Shown: positions 5,507 through 16,087 of the stretch, in pieces
Layout of the letters: each line of letters opens with the position of its first letter
How positions within the stretch are numbered: position 1 is the stretch's first letter
DNA from: Fuerstiella sp.
GTDB taxonomy: Bacteria; Planctomycetota; Planctomycetia; Planctomycetales; Planctomycetaceae
Direction of reading: 5' to 3'
Assembly (NCBI GenBank): GCA_022447225.1
Contig: JAKVAZ010000010.1
Coordinates: forward strand, 1 to 64,000
DNA length: 64,000 nt
The notes under the pieces: generated by a model
What the model was told of the DNA's origin: nothing
The model's input: only the letters and a program-made list of their open reading frames with translations
The model's database searches: none
Made by a program: the position numbers and the translations under genes

Positions 5507-6745
5507 ATGCCTGCTGTCTTTGAAGCAAACGGTCGTCGGTATGCTCCACCTGACCAGCCGATTGTGGTCATCTGTATCGACGGATGCGGTGACGAATATT
5601 TGTCGGTGTCGATCAATCGCGGCCGGATGCCTCACATGGAGCGCATGGCCCGCAACGGATATCGCGGACTGGTTCGAGGCGTGGTGCCGACTTTTACGAA
5701 TGTGAATAACGCATCGATCGTGACCGGCGTTCCGCCGGCGATTAACGGTGTTTCCGGCAACTTCTTCCTCAACCCGGAAACCGGGGAAGAAGTGATGATG
5801 AATTCTCCCGAATATCGTCGTTGTGGAACATTGCTGACCGCCGCTGCCGATGCAGGACGAAAAGTTGCGTTCATCACAGCCAAGGAGAAACTCCGCACCG
5901 TGTTGGGTGATGGAATTGTCGAACGAGGCGGCATCGCGTTTTCGTCTGAGAAAGTTGATGAGGCACGACAGGAAACACATGGTGTTGACGACGCAGAATC
6001 GATCATTGGCCGGCCACGTCCTGAAATCTATTCCGCGGATGCTTCTGTCTATGTTCTCGAAGCCGGAGCCGCCCTGCTGGCACAGCACAAAGCCGATTTT
6101 CTTTATCTGTCGCTGACGGACTACATGCAGCACAAATTTGCTCCGGAAGAACCCGAAAGCCTGGAATTCCATGCTGCAATGGATGAACAAATCGGCCGAC
6201 TTCTGGACGCCGGCTGCATCATTGCTGCAACCGCCGATCATGGAATGAATGCCAAGAACAGGGACGACGGAACTCCCAATGTGATTTATGTGGAATCGCT
6301 GCTGAGCGCGGAATTCGGCGAAGGTTGTCGGGTGATCTGTCCGGTTACGGATCCGTATGTCGTGCATCACGGATCTCTGGGAGCTCTGGTGATGGTCCAT
6401 CTTGACCAACCTGCAATGGCGGGGGAAGTGGCAAAGTTTCTGTTCGACCAGGAAGGCGTCACTGAAGTTCTGACACGTGACCAGGCTGCTGCGAAACTGG
6501 AACTGCCCGCAGATCGCATCGGTGATCTTGTGGTCCTCAGTGGACGCAGTGTGGTCCTTGGCAAGACACCTGAGTACCACAACCTGAAGGTACTACACCA
6601 GGGTCTGCGATCTCACGGCGGGCGCTACGAAGAAATGGTCCCACTGGTGATTTCACATCCATTAAAAAGCGAATACATCCGCAAGGCTCAGGGTGATCCC
6701 CGTAATTTTGATGTCTTCGACTTCGCCTGTAACGGAACCTGCTGA
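5507..6745 (+). CDS. phnA: Phosphonoacetate hydrolase
   Basis: A 412-residue member of the alkaline phosphatase superfamily that cleaves phosphonoacetate to acetate and phosphate using two zinc ions. The full ligand set known from PhnA can be read. Asp25 is in CIDGCGDEY, the nucleophile Thr64 in FTNVNN, Asp205/His209 in DYMQH, Asp244/His245 in ADHGMN and His370 in SHGGRYEE. The length matches the family. The N-terminus has no signal peptide, so the enzyme is cytoplasmic. It is the first gene of a rightward run, with phnY starting 12 bases after its stop codon and phnW beyond. Together these make the PhnWAY route for 2-aminoethylphosphonate. Other superfamily members such as nucleotide pyrophosphatases share the metal site, but the neighbours make PhnA by far the best call. 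Confidence 0.93.
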   Translation: MPAVFEANGRRYAPPDQPIVVICIDGCGDEYLSVSINRGRMPHMERMARNGYRGLVRGVVPTFTNVNNASIVTGVPPAINGVSGNFFLNPETGEEVMMNSPEYRRCGTLLTAAADAGRKVAFITAKEKLRTVLGDGIVERGGIAFSSEKVDEARQETHGVDDAESIIGRPRPEIYSADASVYVLEAGAALLAQHKADFLYLSLTDYMQHKFAPEEPESLEFHAAMDEQIGRLLDAGCIIAATADHGMNAKNRDDGTPNVIYVESLLSAEFGEGCRVICPVTDPYVVHHGSLGALVMVHLDQPAMAGEVAKFLFDQEGVTEVLTRDQAAAKLELPADRIGDLVVLSGRSVVLGKTPEYHNLKVLHQGLRSHGGRYEEMVPLVISHPLKSEYIRKAQGDPRNFDVFDFACNGTC

Positions 6746-6757
6746 AATACGGAACAG

Positions 6758-8194
6758 ATGATGGTCATTGAACTGCCGAGTTACATTGCCGGTGAGGCCG
6801 TTAGAACCGATCGATGGCTTGATGTGCACTATCCCTGGGACAACTCCCTGACGGGTCGGGTTGCTGTGGCAGGTCCGGTACATCTCGAACGGGCGATTGT
6901 GGCTGCGATCGAGGGGGGGAGACAGCCCCTCACACGTTATCAGCGTCACGATATTTTGCGCCGTGCCGCGGCGCTGCTGGCAGAACATCGGGAAGAGCTG
7001 GCGCAGCTGATCTGTCGTGAATCCGGGTTGTGTATGAAGGAAACCCTGTACGAAACAGGCCGCAGCTCGGACGTTATGGAGTTCGCAGCCATCGAAGCCC
7101 TGAGGGATGACGGTCAGATCTTTTCCTGTGATATTTCCCCTCAGGGAAAAGCCCGGAAGATCTTTACGTTTCGTCAGCCGGTCCAGCTGGTCACGGCAAT
7201 TACACCGTTCAATCATCCACTGAACCAGGTGGCTCATAAGGTCGCTCCGGCGATCGCCGCCGGGGCTCCTGTATTGCTGAAACCGAGCGAAAAAACACCT
7301 CTCACCTCACTGAGATTCTGTGAGCTGCTTTATGAAGCCGGACTGCCGGGATGGATGTTGAGTATGTTCGTGGGTGACATCGATGATGTGGTCACCCCGA
7401 TGATTACAGATCCCCGGGTGGAGTTGGTTTCCTTCACCGGTTCCGTGGAGATCGGAAAACTGGTCGCTCAAACGGCCGGATATAAAAAAACGTGTCTGGA
7501 ACTCGGCGGCAATTCACCACTGATAGTTCTGGAGGACGCCGATCTTGACAAAGCTGTGCTGCTGGCGGCGGAAGGCTGTTTCCGGAATTCCGGTCAACGG
7601 TGTACAGCCGTCAAGCGATTGCTGGTGCAGGAATCGATCCACCGGGAATTTACTCAGCGGTTTGTGGAAAAGGCGGGTGAGTATCTGCCCGGTGACCCGG
7701 AGGATCGGTCAACGCGAGTCGGAACGGTGATTGATGAAGCAGCAGCCATCACGCTGGAACAGCGAGTCCGGCAGGCCGTTGCTGATGGAGCGGAAGTCCT
7801 GTTGGGCGGCGATCGTCGCGGGGCGCTGATGGAGCCCACCGTCATCAACAATGTTCCTCGCAGTACGCCGATGGTATTAAAAGAGAGCTTCGGTCCCCTG
7901 GCTCCGGTCATTCCCATTCGGGATCTGGACGATGCGATTGACTATTACAACAACGGGCCGTTTGGGCTGAGTACCGGAGTGGTCACCAATAATATGGAGC
8001 AGGCTCTGAAAGCGGTTCGAGAACTGAAGACGGGAACCACGAATATCAATGAAGTTCCGGGCTATCGAATCGAGTCCAGTCCTTTTGGTGGTGTCAGAGA
8101 TTCGGGACTGGGGATTAAAGAAGGTGTGATCGAAACGATGAAGTTCATGACCAACGTTAAGACATTTAGTCTGCCGTGGGGATCATCACTGTGA
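6758..8194 (+). CDS. phnY: Phosphonoacetaldehyde dehydrogenase
   Basis: A 478-residue aldehyde dehydrogenase that would oxidise phosphonoacetaldehyde to phosphonoacetate with NAD(P)+. Catalytic residues are in place: Asn152 (TPFNHP), Glu248 (LELGGNSP) and the nucleophile Cys282 (NSGQRCTA). The C-terminal SSPFGGVRDSGLG motif is typical of the superfamily. The generic family includes succinate-semialdehyde and lactaldehyde dehydrogenases. The specific call rests on the flanking phnA (12 bases upstream) and phnW (65 bases downstream), which supply its product use and substrate. Two adjacent ATG codons (6758 and 6761) can serve as start. It is probably cotranscribed with phnA. Confidence 0.92.
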   Translation: MMVIELPSYIAGEAVRTDRWLDVHYPWDNSLTGRVAVAGPVHLERAIVAAIEGGRQPLTRYQRHDILRRAAALLAEHREELAQLICRESGLCMKETLYETGRSSDVMEFAAIEALRDDGQIFSCDISPQGKARKIFTFRQPVQLVTAITPFNHPLNQVAHKVAPAIAAGAPVLLKPSEKTPLTSLRFCELLYEAGLPGWMLSMFVGDIDDVVTPMITDPRVELVSFTGSVEIGKLVAQTAGYKKTCLELGGNSPLIVLEDADLDKAVLLAAEGCFRNSGQRCTAVKRLLVQESIHREFTQRFVEKAGEYLPGDPEDRSTRVGTVIDEAAAITLEQRVRQAVADGAEVLLGGDRRGALMEPTVINNVPRSTPMVLKESFGPLAPVIPIRDLDDAIDYYNNGPFGLSTGVVTNNMEQALKAVRELKTGTTNINEVPGYRIESSPFGGVRDSGLGIKEGVIETMKFMTNVKTFSLPWGSSL

Positions 8195-8259
8195 GGCTGA
8201 AATCTCCTGCCTGATAATAGTTGGCTCATTGAAAACGAGTTCGTGAAAACCCAATATCA

Positions 8260-9387
8260 ATGATGGATCTGATCGAGAACGATTACCTACTCTTAACACC
8301 TGGCCCTCTGTCAACGTCTCCCACGGTTCGCGCTGCCATGAATCGTGACTGGTGTACGTGGGATGACGACTACAACGTCGGTGTGGTGACACCGATTCGG
8401 GAGAAGCTGGTGCAGCTTGCCACTGCCTCCCGGCCGGACGAGTATACCTGTGTGCTGATGCAGGGGAGCGGCACGTTTTCGGTGGAATCGATGATTGGCT
8501 CGACGATTCCTGCGGATGGTAAACTGTTAGTGCTGGTCAACGGAGTATACGGAAATCGACTGGCTCAGATTGCCGCACGACTCAATATCGATCACATCGT
8601 ACAGGACAGCGGAGAGCTTGCACGACCTGATCCGGATCGTCTCGGTCAGACGCTGTGTGATGATCCCGGGATCACACATGTGGCTGTGGTGCACAACGAA
8701 ACCACCACCGGCATGATGAATCCCCTGGAAGAAATAGCCTCGATCGTGAAGTCGCAGGACCGAATTCTGCTGGTGGATTCGATGAGTGCTTTTGGAGGCG
8801 TACCAATGGACGTTGCTGAACTGGGCATCGACTACCTGGTGTCGTCAGCAAACAAATGCATTCAGGGGGTACCGGGTTTTGGTTTTGTGATCGGACGGGT
8901 GGAGCAGATCAGGCAAACGCAGGGCCGGGCCCGGTCGCTGTCACTGGATCTCCACGACCAGTGGCAGTGTATGGAACACGGCAAAGGAAAATGGCGTTAT
9001 ACGAGTCCGACGCACGTGGTGCGTGCGTTCTATCAGGCGTTGATTGAGCTGGAACAGGAAGGAGGCATCGCGGCTCGTCATGCCCGCTATACCGAGAATC
9101 AGTGTCGGTTGGTGGCCGGCATGCAGCGACTGGGATTTCGCTGTGTGCTGCCGGCTGAATATCACAGTCCGATCATTACGGGGTTCCGCAGTCCGCAACA
9201 TCCGGACTACGATTTCCAGCGGTTCTATGGTCTGCTGAAGACTCAGGGTTTTGTGATTTACCCGGGCAGAGTGACCGGAATTGACTCCTTCCGCATCGGT
9301 ACGATCGGTCACGTTTTTCCTGAGGACATTGACCGCCTGCTGATCGCGATTCGAGCGTCGATGTACTGGGAATCGCTGAAGTTTTAG
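8260..9387 (+). CDS. phnW: 2-aminoethylphosphonate-pyruvate transaminase
   Basis: A 375-residue fold-type I PLP enzyme that transfers the amino group of 2-aminoethylphosphonate to pyruvate, giving phosphonoacetaldehyde and alanine. The N-terminal [14 protein letters not shown] and WCTWDDDYN signature is characteristic of PhnW. Asp173 ([10 protein letters not shown]) contacts the PLP ring, and Lys199 in [15 protein letters not shown] is the Schiff-base lysine. The length fits the family. Two ATG codons, 8260 and 8263, are possible starts. It follows phnY by 65 bases and precedes a membrane protein by 11 bases. Serine-glyoxylate aminotransferases share the fold, but the motifs and neighbours favour PhnW. 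Confidence 0.94.
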
Positions 9388-11661: not shown

Positions 11662-14600
11662 TCAACCCAGGTAACTGGACAAACAGGTGGGGGTCGTTTT
11701 TGTTGCAGACTGTTCAACAGACATGTCTGTTTTGCGGCTATCTGTCGTCGGCGACGAAGCGGCATTCTGCTGGTAGCTTTTCAGCTGCAGGATTCCCAGC
11801 CGATGCAGCTTTTCAATCCAGCTTCGTTCGAACTCCTCACTGTACTGTGACAAAACGGGTGCTGTTCTTTCAAAGCGTTCGAGTTCGTCGGCAATGCCGG
11901 CTGTAATTTCATAGGTAGTGAAGAAGGGGTTACCCGGGAAACGCAGTTCGTAGTCCGTTTCCCTGCGCGACAGGCTTTGTGTGGCCACCAGCCGCAGTTG
12001 CGAATGGACGGACAGAACCATGGATTCGGCCTCCCTGCTGTCCCACAGGCGGCGCTGCTCAATCCATTCCTGGACATGTTCCCAGACGGGTTCCGCAGGA
12101 TTGTGAATGGTGCGGGTTGTAATATCAGAGCCGGAACATCGGGCGTTCAGCCAGACGAGAATATATCCAAAATTCACGTTCTGCAGATTTTCGTCACGAA
12201 AGTTTTGAATCCAGCGGTCTAGTTCTGCGTGATAGTCTTCCAGACTTTGCGAGAACGGTGCATGGCAGTGCGGGACGGAGAACAGGATTTCATCCCGATC
12301 TGCGGTTGAGAGAATCAAAGCGTGGGCGGCCGCCTCGTTCAGCCAGTTCTTAAGTTTTTGCTCATACGTTTCAGGATTGACCAGGTCGGTGACAACACAA
12401 AGTCTTCCGTCCGGGCTGAGGTGTTGTTCTGCTCCGCGTACAATTTCCTGCAGGATTCTTTCTCCCGTTGTACCACCATCACGGAACCTGAATTTCTCCT
12501 CCGGGCTGGGAACGAACGGCGGGTTTGCGAGGATGCAGTCGAACGTTTGGTCTTTGACGGCTTCGTACAGGTCTCCCTGACGTGCTTCATAATTGCGAAT
12601 ACCATTCAGCTGAGCATTGAACCGTGAAAAACGAATGGCTCGGGGGTTCACATCGACAGCAACGATTTTTCTCGCGTAGCGACCGGCCACCAGTCCCTGA
12701 ATTCCTGATCCGCAGCACAGGTCCAGCAATGCGTCACATATTTGACGTGGCGCTGTCTGCACAAGACCGTGACTGTCCATGCCAATATACATGACCGGAT
12801 CTTCGTCCAGTCGGTCATCTTCAAAGATCATGTAGCGATGATCGGTGGCAATCAGCAGACCACCTGAACAGAACAGGTCAACACCCCCCCGAAAGTGATG
12901 TTCCTGTTCGATCAGAATTCCCATTGTAACGAGGCAGTGCCGCTGATTTTCGTCAAAGAGATTTTCCACACGTTTCCGGGGAACCGAGGCTCTCAGCTGA
13001 AACAGTCGGACCAGATCACTCAGAGGAGTTTCGGGCAGCAGGTGTGTGTCGTAATAGTGCAGTCGTGTTGGTTCAATCGACTGCAGGGAGTCAACACTCA
13101 GCAGCCGGCAGATGGTTTTTTCGGCGTAGCCGGCGTTCAGAATGGTCTGCCGGATTTGTCGCAGTTCGTACTCAATATTGAAATCGGAACTGTGGAACGA
13201 GTCCAGAGTCTGCCTGCTTTTCAGGCCGGACAGATCGATGAGTGATCGATGGTCCGTATCCAGCCAGCCGTTATGAACTGCAATCTGAAACTGTTCAAGG
13301 ACGGAAGTCACCTCCGCGATCATTTCATCGAATTCTGCCGGTGTTGCGCACAGTTTCAGACGCAGTTCTTCCCGAAGTGAACGGGGATCATGGCGGACCG
13401 CAAGCAGGACTTCGAGCTGACGCAGAGTCAGCTGCACTTTTGCCTGGCGTCCGGTTTCATCCACAAGTACTGAGTTGCCCCCGGGATTCAGAACAATGGT
13501 TGTCTGCGGGCTAAGCTGAGTTTCCAGAGGGACAAGAAACGGTGATTTGCCGAATAAGAGACTGGTTTCCTTCAGCAGGCCTCCATGGTCGGCGATGCTG
13601 GCCAGTTCTGATTCGGTCCAGTGCCGACTGCCGTCATGATCGAACAGGGCTGCATCCAGTTCGGTCATCAGCGGGACAACGGACGGTTGCTGCGCATCCA
13701 GACCGCGAGGTAGTTTTTCCACAGGCAGATTGAAAACATGCCGGTCATATTCTCTGACCGACTGGTGCCGACGTCGAATCCATCGATCTTCCAGAGCAAG
13801 ATAGTCTATGTCGGTTCGCAGGAACGTTTCGATTGCTTCCTGAGGTGTTTCCACGATTGGCTGACCCGCCACATTGAAGCTGGTATTCAGTAGGACCGGT
13901 GCAACACCCCGCCTTTTTTCTGCTTCCAGACACAGTGCATGGAAGAATGCATTGTCCTGCTCGGTGCAGGTCTGCACGCGACCGGTGCCGTCTGCGTGTG
14001 TGATGGACGGCAGCAGTGATTTGAGTTCTTCCCGGACCGGCGCGACCAGCAGCATATACGGTGATTCGGAACCCAGTTCGAAGACATCTGCTGCGCGTTC
14101 CAGAGGCACGAAAGGAGCGAACGGGCGAAAGGCTTCGCGAAATTTGACTCTGGCGTTTAAAACGTCCTTCATGCGTTCATAGGTGGGGTCGGCCAGAATC
14201 GAACGATGTCCCAGAGCACGCGGTCCAAACTCAGAGCCTCCTTCATAGCGGGCAACAACATGGCCTTTGACCAGGGCGTCTGCCACGCGATGAGTCATGT
14301 CAGCGAATTCAAACTGTTCCACCTTCAGCAGATCACCAAAACCGTCGACAGCTCTGTCGATTTCCTCGGAGCTGTACGGGCGCCCGAAACAGGCGGACCG
14401 GAGAGCCGGACGTGCGGTTCCGGATTCCTGAGTGTGGTACGCCCACAGCGCACAACCCGCCGAAATTCCGTTGTCGCCGGCGGCGGGAAAGACAAAGATG
14501 TCATCCAGTTTGCAGCGTGTCAGGATTTGATAGTTGGCCACAGAGTTCAGTGCAATACCGCCAGCCAGACACAGGTGTGTGAGTCCCGTTTGTTTTGCTG

Positions 14601-15453
14601 CTTCTTCGACCAGAGCGCACAAAACCTGTTCCAGTTCGTTTTGTACTTTCCATGCCAGGTCGACCAGCCATGGTCGAAAATAAGGTTTTCCCTGTCCGCT
14701 GTTGTAGCGTTTTTCCAGGGCTGTCATCTCCAGAAAAATATCATACGCCGATATTCGGATGCTGCGTGAGTTTAAGTCTTTATGAAACCAGCGGTTCCAG
14801 TTTGGCTGGGGACCGCCGTATGCAGCAAGTCCCATGAGCTTGCCGGCTTCGGCGAAACTGAGCCCGGAATTGAGCTGGGTGACAAAACCGGCTTTTCTGG
14901 CAACAGCTTCATACACAAACCCCAAAGTCGACAGAGTCGTCAGGTGAGACTGAACCGTTTCGCTGTGCAGTTCCGTTAGTTTGGTGCCGCGGCCTTCGTA
15001 CAGCGTATAAGACTCCGTATGACGCCCGTATTTATCGGAAATCGTTGACCCGCTGGCATCCACAACCAGGACCAGGGCTTCGTCAAATCCGGAAGGCCAG
15101 AAGGCCGAATAGGCATGGGCCAGATGATGGCTGGGGACCTGCCGCACATGTGAAGCCAGTTCGTCTGAAAACTTGCTTCGCATGATCTGTGGTGCCATAT
15201 CGACACCCGGCATGTTTGCCGTGATGGTGCTCATCGCTGACAGAGGCAGTTCCAGGTAGTTCAGGCAGTAAGCAATGCTTTCCCCAGGTACCTGAATTTG
15301 ACCCATCTGATCAGGGGACTGCAGCATGAACCCCACACTGTGCTTCACCCGGTCCAGGCGTTCCTGCTCGATCGCAACCACCACCCTGCCGTCCTGAACG
15401 ACGGCGGCGGAGCGGTCGTGTCCCATATTGATACCCAGGTGAAATTTGCTCAT
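11662..15453 (-). CDS. Carbamoyltransferase-methyltransferase fusion protein
   Basis: A 1263-residue multidomain protein. Residues 1-565 are a complete NodU/CmcH/TobZ-type O-carbamoyltransferase. The Kae1-like part shows SHHLAHAYSAFW near 108-119, VVDASGS, GGIALNSVAN near 298 and AAGDNGISAG, and the C-terminal part shows GGSEFGPRALGHRSI near 405-419. Residues about 590-740 form a linker that may contain a winged-helix segment. Residues about 755-1120 are a class I SAM methyltransferase with LDLCCGSGIQG near 910, VAVDVNPRAIRFSR and the NPPF motif near 977, preceded by a helical domain like that found in actinobacterial stand-alone methyltransferases. The ATG at 15453 gives the normal MSKFHLGINMGHD beginning; a GTG nine bases upstream is an alternative. 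It is alone, with no adjoining biosynthetic genes. The target of either activity is unknown. Confidence 0.9.
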   Translation of the reverse strand: MSKFHLGINMGHDRSAAVVQDGRVVVAIEQERLDRVKHSVGFMLQSPDQMGQIQVPGESIAYCLNYLELPLSAMSTITANMPGVDMAPQIMRSKFSDELASHVRQVPSHHLAHAYSAFWPSGFDEALVLVVDASGSTISDKYGRHTESYTLYEGRGTKLTELHSETVQSHLTTLSTLGFVYEAVARKAGFVTQLNSGLSFAEAGKLMGLAAYGGPQPNWNRWFHKDLNSRSIRISAYDIFLEMTALEKRYNSGQGKPYFRPWLVDLAWKVQNELEQVLCALVEEAAKQTGLTHLCLAGGIALNSVANYQILTRCKLDDIFVFPAAGDNGISAGCALWAYHTQESGTARPALRSACFGRPYSSEEIDRAVDGFGDLLKVEQFEFADMTHRVADALVKGHVVARYEGGSEFGPRALGHRSILADPTYERMKDVLNARVKFREAFRPFAPFVPLERAADVFELGSESPYMLLVAPVREELKSLLPSITHADGTGRVQTCTEQDNAFFHALCLEAEKRRGVAPVLLNTSFNVAGQPIVETPQEAIETFLRTDIDYLALEDRWIRRRHQSVREYDRHVFNLPVEKLPRGLDAQQPSVVPLMTELDAALFDHDGSRHWTESELASIADHGGLLKETSLLFGKSPFLVPLETQLSPQTTIVLNPGGNSVLVDETGRQAKVQLTLRQLEVLLAVRHDPRSLREELRLKLCATPAEFDEMIAEVTSVLEQFQIAVHNGWLDTDHRSLIDLSGLKSRQTLDSFHSSDFNIEYELRQIRQTILNAGYAEKTICRLLSVDSLQSIEPTRLHYYDTHLLPETPLSDLVRLFQLRASVPRKRVENLFDENQRHCLVTMGILIEQEHHFRGGVDLFCSGGLLIATDHRYMIFEDDRLDEDPVMYIGMDSHGLVQTAPRQICDALLDLCCGSGIQGLVAGRYARKIVAVDVNPRAIRFSRFNAQLNGIRNYEARQGDLYEAVKDQTFDCILANPPFVPSPEEKFRFRDGGTTGERILQEIVRGAEQHLSPDGRLCVVTDLVNPETYEQKLKNWLNEAAAHALILSTADRDEILFSVPHCHAPFSQSLEDYHAELDRWIQNFRDENLQNVNFGYILVWLNARCSGSDITTRTIHNPAEPVWEHVQEWIEQRRLWDSREAESMVLSVHSQLRLVATQSLSRRETDYELRFPGNPFFTTYEITAGIADELERFERTAPVLSQYSEEFERSWIEKLHRLGILQLKSYQQNAASSPTTDSRKTDMSVEQSATKTTPTCLSSYLG

Positions 15454-16087
15454 TGACAGCACGAGTATCTATACGAAAGGAGTGCGACCGGGATGTTTGA
15501 GTACACAACAAGCAGTCCGCAGCCGGGCACAACACGGGTGAAACTGCACAACAGTCATCCGCACGCAGCAGCGGAACGCAAAAAAAGATTCGCGGGATCC
15601 TGCCAGTGTTAATTTAGAATGCATCAAAGACCACCTCAAGTACAGGCACGGTCTCCTTTACAGGCACGCGCCCGTCCTCAACGCGTCTGTATCGTGGACT
15701 GAAGCGGATCGTGTACCAGGCAGATCACAGTTTTTCACTGTGTGAGTTTACGGGGTGCCGGCAAATCCGGTGCGTTCATCACTGATCATCTGCAGGATGA
15801 ACTGCGGCATTGTGTGAGTCTTCGGTGTTTTTGCAAAAGACGATGTTGCGATCAATGCCTCAACAGCCGGCTCCGTTTCGGACAACAGTCCGGGACATGA
15901 ATCAGACAAACGTCACGGCTGTGTTTGAACGTTTTGTTTGTCCGATCGCAGTACACTTCAGGACCGGTCCTGTTACTTGCCGGACAGTGCGGGTATCCTT
16001 GCCGACCGTTGTTCGTGACCGTTCGACATTGATTCCGCAGGTGTGCGGGAGCCGTCACGTTTGTGGGAAAATTACTCTGAGGACACA
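15454..16087. other. Divergent intergenic region, no gene seen
   Basis: These 634 bases lie between the divergent carbamoyltransferase and glycosidase-like genes. Only short unsupported ORFs occur. A 10-base direct repeat TACAGGCACG starts at 15641 and again at 15659 and could be part of a binding site. The GAGGA at 16079-16083 is the ribosome-binding site of the next gene. No RNA gene was recognised. Confidence 0.4.

Follow-up and report, generated by a model that had tools for sequence, protein, structure and literature searches.

Antibiotics and signals are commonly carbamoylated or methylated at a late stage of their biosynthesis. In the Nod factors, NodU introduces a 6-O-carbamoyl group and NodS an N-methyl group. 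According to passages of the report on the phurealipids, PliA carries out a carbamoylation and PliB then methylates the resulting urea; disruption of pliA abolishes the compounds, and disruption of pliB leaves the desmethyl compounds (PMC4486325). Here, we analyzed a gene of the marine planctomycete Fuerstiella sp. in a window of 64,000 nucleotides (the whole stretch under study, positions 1 to 64,000 of contig JAKVAZ010000010.1, assembly GCA_022447225.1). The minus-strand open reading frame (ORF) 11662-15462 encodes a single uninterrupted chain consisting of a class III O-carbamoyltransferase, a linker, and a methyltransferase. Fused copies occur in seven planctomycete genomes, labeled G000 (the genome of the window), G001, G471, G627, G810, G830, and G853. 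Each half is of a known kind, and the novelty lies in the joined architecture and in a conserved C-terminal tail, a combination that we did not find in the literature searched (here and below, open-licence PMC papers). We consider it about an even bet (probability roughly 0.5) that the product is one bifunctional tailoring enzyme whose halves act on a shared substrate; what the two halves do, in which order and on which common molecule, and what the tail is for are inferences.

Two enzyme halves in one chain

The ORF begins with GTG and comprises 1266 codons plus the stop codon; all coordinates given below for its parts are window positions on the minus strand. An in-frame ATG at 15453, giving 1263 amino acids, is the likelier start because it is also present in the close ortholog (locus L051), and the initial annotation had placed the gene boundary at this very position. 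Pfam matches to Carbam_trans_N (E value 3.1e-30), Carbam_trans_C (1.4e-61), and MTS (2.1e-21) all exceeded the curated cut-offs. The view of the initial annotation that a full TobZ/NodU-type carbamoyltransferase and a full methyltransferase with an NPPF motif share one chain was thereby borne out. Our analysis adds the kinship of the second half with stand-alone DUF7059-MTS-DUF7782 proteins, a single old fusion event, and the conserved tail.

The carbamoyltransferase half spans residues 9-566 (13765-15438), with Carbam_trans_N and Carbam_trans_C scores of 106.2 and 207.4 bits (cut-offs, 24 and 27). A PDB sequence search with this half returned NovN, GdmN, another carbamoyltransferase (7xb6), and TobZ, with E values from 1.5e-68 to 3e-56. 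An AlphaFold2 (AF2) model of residues 1-640, built with 17 relatives, reached a predicted local distance difference test (pLDDT) score of 72.3 and matched TobZ at rank 1 (E = 3.2e-42; template modelling score, TM, 0.70/0.79; root-mean-square deviation 5.5; 31% identity); HypF itself was a weak fold match. Five residues of the Kae1-like part (H15, H112, H116, D135, D330) and five of the YrdC-like part (R415, K440, R446, R495, S528) are invariant in the seven fusions, and H15, H112, H116, D135, D330, K440, and likewise S528 are invariant columns among 18 carbamoyltransferases; these supply the catalytic His, the metal-binding H-x3-H and acidic residues, and the adenylation Lys and Ser expected of the class. 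As read from alignments and spacing, H15, K440, and S528 correspond to the residues changed in the TobZ variants H14N, K443A, and S530A (PDB titles). In GdmN, according to passages of PMC9633730, His133, His137, Glu156, and Glu333 surround an Fe ion and H27 is a likely base. By the same kind of residue matching, H112, H116, and H15 are the counterparts of His133, His137, and H27, whereas D135 and D330 have Asp in place of Glu156 and Glu333. The score against the NodU equivalog NF041651 of NCBIfam was 135.5 bits (139.3 for the first half alone), and more than 1000 bits are required. TobZ-type carbamoylation is firmly predicted for this half.

The class I methyltransferase core (MTS; residues 898-1043, 12334-12771) contains the motifs LDLCCGSG at 913-920 and NPPF, of the type NPP[FY], at 980-983, and its MTS domain scored 76.8 bits against a cut-off of 23. 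D914, G918, G920, and NPPF are invariant in the seven fusions. Ahead of the core lies a DUF7059-like part (residues 786-890, 12793-13107), identified by alignment with stand-alone relatives and by a Pfam score of 19.4 bits, which is below the cut-off of 27. A weakly conserved C-terminal region (residues 1111-1225, 11788-12132) occupies the position of DUF7782 in the stand-alone relatives; DUF7782 gave no Pfam match in the fusion and an hhalign probability below 1%. Among five stand-alone proteins scanned, DUF7059 passes its cut-off in four (L035, L036, L037, and L039; not L047) and DUF7782 in two (L035 and L039). The alignment to 15 stand-alone proteins runs from residue ~786, the start of the DUF7059-like part, through the core to ~1110 and is weak farther on. 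No paper on DUF7059 or DUF7782 was found, and the stand-alone family is uncharacterised.

Alignments further revealed a stretch common to the fusions, TADR[DN]E-LFS-PH-HAPF-Q (residues 1053-1072, 12247-12306), which none of the 15 stand-alone sequences in the alignment showed and which therefore suggests a new substrate. The protein models scoring nearest to the core were PRK14968, PrmC, and HemK, all below their cut-offs; for the equivalogs, PrmC reached 59-62 bits against 199.1 and HemK2 56-57 against 87. In the PDB, the second half matched GenN best, followed by MJ0882, HemK, RsmC, and 7rc2. The last of these we take to be AerE, the PDB record being named 'Methyltransferase family protein' only. 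HemK/PrmC methylate glutamine and AerE/PoyE asparagine, both at planar amide nitrogens, and NPP[FY] enzymes often methylate base nitrogens. Because the core resembles such amide-nitrogen and base-nitrogen methyltransferases, the methyl acceptor is likely a planar nitrogen; an amine is possible, given GenN, a sugar-amine (amino-sugar) N-methyltransferase.

Occurrence and origin of the fusion

We searched samples of Planctomycetota genomes, plasmids, phages, and viral contigs, and scanned the genome collection once for close relatives only; the genome samples overlap, and their counts are not to be summed. A full-length ortholog, 89% identical, lies on the independent contig JAKVAY010000037.1 of Fuerstiella sp. 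ALOHA_ZT_14 (G001), flanked by the same genes to the left and right. G002, the third genome of the genus, lacks both the fusion and the creatininase gene that neighbors it. The five copies of a distant class show about 45-64% identity. The fused frames contain no internal stop, so that we rejected two genes misread as one, and the independent ortholog together with the five further copies led us to reject an assembly error. Thus, neither an assembly error nor separate genes in all close relatives, the two outcomes that the initial annotation had named as fatal to its claim, agrees with a gene that is fused in seven genomes.

The architecture is unusual, as had been supposed. In the family of the window genome, the C-terminal half found a match at E <= 1e-13 in 2 of 170 genomes, both fused. 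In its class, 18 of 397 genomes matched at 1e-15, namely the window and 17 stand-alone frames of 502-609 amino acids. A sample of the phylum yielded matches to the methyltransferase model at 1e-25 in 41 of 392 genomes, three of them fused (G000, G627, and G471); other long frames (G570, G582, and G739) had no carbamoyltransferase match in the fetched stretches. In the distant class, that of G627, a search with the fusion model at 1e-90 gave matches in 60 of 154 genomes, among them five with the fusion (G471, G627, G810, G830, and G853); the remaining matches cover the carbamoyltransferase part only. None of the 12 genomes of the class of G460 was shown to be fused, with three matching in the carbamoyltransferase part. 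No place covering 80% of the chain was present in the 357 plasmid records with a match or in 153 phage records, and two viral scans gave no relatives of the methyltransferase half. In a third viral scan, 72 IMG/VR loci (L117-L188) matched the carbamoyltransferase half, many of the matches extending over more than 3 kb, which would fit a tandem arrangement of two copies. Three planctomycete genomes, G580, G497, and G474 (L093, L094, and L095), each contain two relatives of the methyltransferase half a short distance apart.

Separate trees of the two halves (61 carbamoyltransferase rows, the short row L031 having been dropped, and 38 methyltransferase rows, 36 of them different) both placed the seven fusions in one monophyletic group, with support of 100/100 and 100/99, respectively; the trees were midpoint-rooted, the bootstrap of the larger one was incompletely settled, and several outgroup rows were long. 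The carbamoyltransferase group was recovered again in a 33-row tree. The inner order was identical in both trees: ((G830,(G000,G001)),(G853,(G471,(G627,G810)))). Because both halves group the seven copies with identical branching, the trees indicate one fusion event that is old and has been retained since.

L087, a stand-alone protein from family f41, is the closest relative on the methyltransferase side (sister at 98/95); the remaining rows comprise planctomycete relatives and two long outliers, L053 and L002. In three f41 genomes (G570, G584, and G611), a carbamoyltransferase from the broad branch of the fusions is encoded as well, unfused and at a different place. The carbamoyltransferases common in planctomycetes make up a branch of their own (100/99 in the larger tree, 100/100 in the 33-row tree). 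Viral carbamoyltransferases fall on the same side as the fusions (100/99), and the first half is equally near to carbamoyltransferases of Streptomyces and Azospirillum clusters. A carbamoyltransferase of this branch, 41% identical, is encoded on a Streptomyces plasmid (L055, 11992-14695) among phenazine/isochorismate-type genes, an ATP-grasp gene, and genes for two unnamed proteins of 92 and 231 amino acids. G830 shares its genus with G471, yet the first half of its copy is 75-77% identical to the Fuerstiella copies and 54% to that of G471. Horizontal transfer is likely, but this copy comes from a draft genome, where its contig measures 4,307 bases, and may be misbinned.

The gene is under purifying selection. 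Between G000 and G001, the ratio of nonsynonymous to synonymous substitution rates (dN/dS, Nei-Gojobori) was 0.131 overall, with 0.088 for the first half, 0.270 for the linker, 0.105 for the methyltransferase core, 0.123 for the C-terminal region, and 0.473 for the spacer that follows it. All 30 active-site and motif positions picked in both halves were invariant in the seven copies, compared with 382 of 1225 positions overall; since most of the 30 had been picked after conservation was seen in fewer sequences, this serves as a check on three more sequences and not as a blind test.

Linker, C-terminal tail, and gene neighborhood

The linker (residues 567-785, 13108-13764) is moderately conserved among the fusions in its leading ~75 residues, and the remainder varies in length and sequence. 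A winged helix, suspected there by the initial annotation, received no support, whether as an RRE or as another domain of this kind: the window linker had no Pfam match, and hhalign was negative. The linker of the ortholog gave one weak match below the cut-off (HTH_MCM7, E = 0.027), and an order of strands followed by helices appeared only in a low-confidence AF2 model (pLDDT 28.8). The linker is, in addition, shorter in the distant-class copies. In plasmids, linker homologs were limited to chance-level matches (best E, 0.7).

The C-terminal region is followed by a hypervariable spacer (residues 1226-1252, 11707-11787), too divergent to align, and by the conserved tail (residues 1253-1266, ATKTTPTCLSSYLG, 11665-11706). 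Spacer residues 1226-1250 are 0-30% identical across genera; within genera, the identity is 48% (G627/G810) and 60% (G000/G001). The tail consensus [T/S]KTTPTC[L/V]S[S/N]YL[G/R] is present in all six copies with a sequenced end, the G830 copy being cut by the contig end. Over columns 1253-1265, the six complete fusions agree at 10 of 13 positions, a score surpassed by 18 of 1254 windows of equal length; none wholly inside 1101-1250 has more than 3 invariant columns. The tail is the most conserved feature of the C-terminal part, and in the four complete distant-class copies the terminal residues are identical at 16 of 16 positions.

No paper on KTTPTC was found. A second protein bearing the tail was absent from three genomes of the genus (which yielded the two fusions only) and from 154 distant-class genomes, so that a shared targeting signal was rejected. 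The same 154 genomes contained no gene for a free peptide with the tail; the matches were the four complete fusions and one relic. This sole match in a short frame, of 52 amino acids, lies in G815, where a likely relic of the fusion gene (L201, 1498-1623, minus strand) shows only its 3' end, with the variant tail SKTAPTCVSNYLQ, in an open frame. The match reads like the decayed 3' end of a fusion gene and is therefore probably no free precursor; a separate peptide gene was rejected as the source of the tail.

According to Pfam, the neighborhood of the fusion encodes a type I phosphodiesterase, an aldehyde dehydrogenase, a class V aminotransferase, a protein without family, a creatininase, a DUF4838 protein, and a CobW protein. 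Three of these genes (window 5507-9387) form a set resembling 2-aminoethylphosphonate degradation (transaminase, aldehyde dehydrogenase, and phosphonoacetate-hydrolase-like), which is kept in Fuerstiella G001. We presume that phosphodiesterase, aldehyde dehydrogenase, and aminotransferase are PhnA, PhnY, and PhnW of aminoethylphosphonate use. Neither the phosphonate-type genes nor the creatininase were found at the distant copies, and a substrate deduced from the neighbors was rejected. In stretches of 4 to 40 kb per genome (4 kb for G830), no adjacent gene was common across genera, apart from one weak match (E = 2e-9) between a Phytase-like protein in G627, more than 10 kb away, and a contig-end fragment without family in G853, of which we make nothing. 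In keeping with the initial annotation, no biosynthetic cluster was seen around the fusion gene.

Two unfused gene pairs share the order of the fusion. In the same genome (L073, 9439-11972, contig C8), a second carbamoyltransferase frame overlaps that of an NPPY methyltransferase, which matches the fusion methyltransferase weakly (E = 4e-6); epimerase-, glycosyltransferase-, and deacetylase-like genes, read by eye, make up a glycan-type cluster around it. On megaplasmids of Mycetohabitans rhizoxinica (L053, 11992-14710; L054, 11992-14695), a carbamoyltransferase-methyltransferase pair, overlapping as annotated, directly precedes a very large nonribosomal peptide synthetase gene.

Predicted function and comparison with known systems

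If the halves serve a shared substrate, the N-terminal half would convert carbamoyl phosphate and adenosine triphosphate (ATP) to carbamoyl adenylate (carbamoyl-AMP) and carbamoylate a hydroxyl or amine of the acceptor, like TobZ and GdmN, and the C-terminal half would then methylate the same molecule with S-adenosylmethionine. The linker would act as a tether, and the tail, set off by a flexible spacer, probably serves for docking or as a carrier. The completeness of both halves, the invariant motifs, the single retained fusion, and purifying selection speak for this enzyme, as do the two unfused gene pairs in the order of the fusion. More specifically, the freshly added carbamoyl group would itself offer the planar nitrogen, and its methylation would give an N-methylcarbamate or N-methylurea. 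Of the specific versions this is the one we prefer, with low confidence, because the named relatives of the methyltransferase core include enzymes acting on planar amide nitrogens; the phurealipid pathway, which does this with two proteins, is a precedent.

Several observations weigh against a coupled enzyme of this kind. The best PDB match, GenN, methylates a sugar amine and has NSP where the fusion has NPP. Both gene pairs were retrieved with the fusion protein as the query, so that an NPP[FY] partner was to be expected in each. No carbamoyltransferase was found in any of 15 fetched neighborhoods of stand-alone methyltransferases (17 relatives), nor in 12 further unfused stretches with relatives, which implies that the two activities are not generally linked. 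The gene neighbors of the fusion indicate no substrate. In crocagin biosynthesis, according to passages of the reports, CgnL methylates the scaffold without the carbamoyl group, and methylation there thus needs no carbamoyl (PMC10070186; also PMC11285071).

Alternatively, the halves could act on separate atoms of a single small product such as an amino sugar or glycan, in the manner of NodU and NodS or of CgnI and CgnL on crocagin. The likeness to the amino-sugar N-methyltransferase GenN, the glycan-type cluster around the carbamoyltransferase-methyltransferase pair of the same genome, and the N-acetyl sugar amidotransferase gene adjoining the carbamoyltransferase of Azospirillum, which lies close to the fusions in the tree, all point this way. 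We regard it as possible but doubtful: beside the Fuerstiella fusions we identified neither glycosyltransferase nor sugar-nucleotide genes (seven of the window proteins were scanned and the others inspected by eye), and the common planctomycete carbamoyltransferases branch separately. The position of the viral carbamoyltransferases on the same side of the tree would rather recall a hydroxylated or hydroxymethylated nucleic acid base or nucleotide that is carbamoylated and N-methylated, as would the frequent action of NPP[FY] enzymes on base nitrogens. A carbamoyltransferase modifying 5-hydroxymethylcytosine in DNA provides a precedent, described in passages of PMC8670742. The first half is, however, equally near to carbamoyltransferases of the Streptomyces and Azospirillum clusters, and no hydroxymethylase gene was noticed beside the fusion among the neighbors, part of which were scanned, which makes such a substrate quite improbable.

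The methyltransferase of borosins acts on its own C-terminus. By analogy, the tail might serve the fusion as its own substrate or carrier and receive the carbamoyl group on Cys, Thr, Ser, or Tyr; HypF loading the C-terminal thiol of HypE, a cysteine, is a parallel (passages of PMC9633730). KTTPTC[L/V]S[S/N]YL would then be carbamoylated and methylated by the enzymes of its own chain, and would be either a mobile arm for transferring an (N-methyl)carbamoyl group or a peptide product fused to its enzymes. Its conservation, with 10 of 13 invariant columns next to a region that never exceeds 3 and with identical ends in the four distant-class copies, would fit; a docking peptide would be conserved equally, the fold match to HypF is weak, and no free tail peptide gene turned up in the 154 genomes. 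Self-modification, in either form, is therefore unlikely in our estimation. That the fusion is a mere co-expression device for two unrelated activities seems very unlikely: unfused relatives of each half do sit at separate places in three f41 genomes, but a single event persists in two classes, its halves having diverged in step, and the fusions share a specific stretch in the methyltransferase half and a new tail.

Should the proposed bifunctional enzyme exist, it would be a compact catalyst for N-methylcarbamates or doubly tailored products, of single origin and with no cluster around it. The fusion may offer an entry to the role of the DUF7059-MTS-DUF7782 methyltransferases, and the invariant tail is a directly testable handle.

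The first half resembles TobZ, GdmN, NovN, VtdB, and NodU in fold, metal-site and catalytic residues, and the YrdC-like part; it differs from them in sequence (27-31% identity in structure alignments), in the attached methyltransferase, and in the lack of a visible biosynthetic cluster. With the DUF7059-MTS-DUF7782 stand-alone proteins, the second half shares the alignable region, NPPF, and an FNA-LNG motif, and it departs from them by the stretch 1053-1072, by a DUF7782 position without significant similarity, and by the carbamoyltransferase and tail. HemK/PrmC and AerE/PoyE have the class I core in common with it; the HemK/PrmC models and 7rc2 match weakly, and the scores stay below the HemK/PrmC equivalog cut-offs. 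As described in passages of PMC10070186, CgnI and CgnL likewise pair carbamoyl transfer with N-methylation by a class I enzyme on a single small product; they are, however, encoded by separate genes in a cluster for a ribosomally synthesized and post-translationally modified peptide, and methylation is independent of the carbamoyl group. The fusion further resembles PliA and PliB, where carbamoylation followed by methylation leads to a methyl urea (passages of PMC4486325), with two separate genes in Photorhabdus and one fused chain in Fuerstiella.

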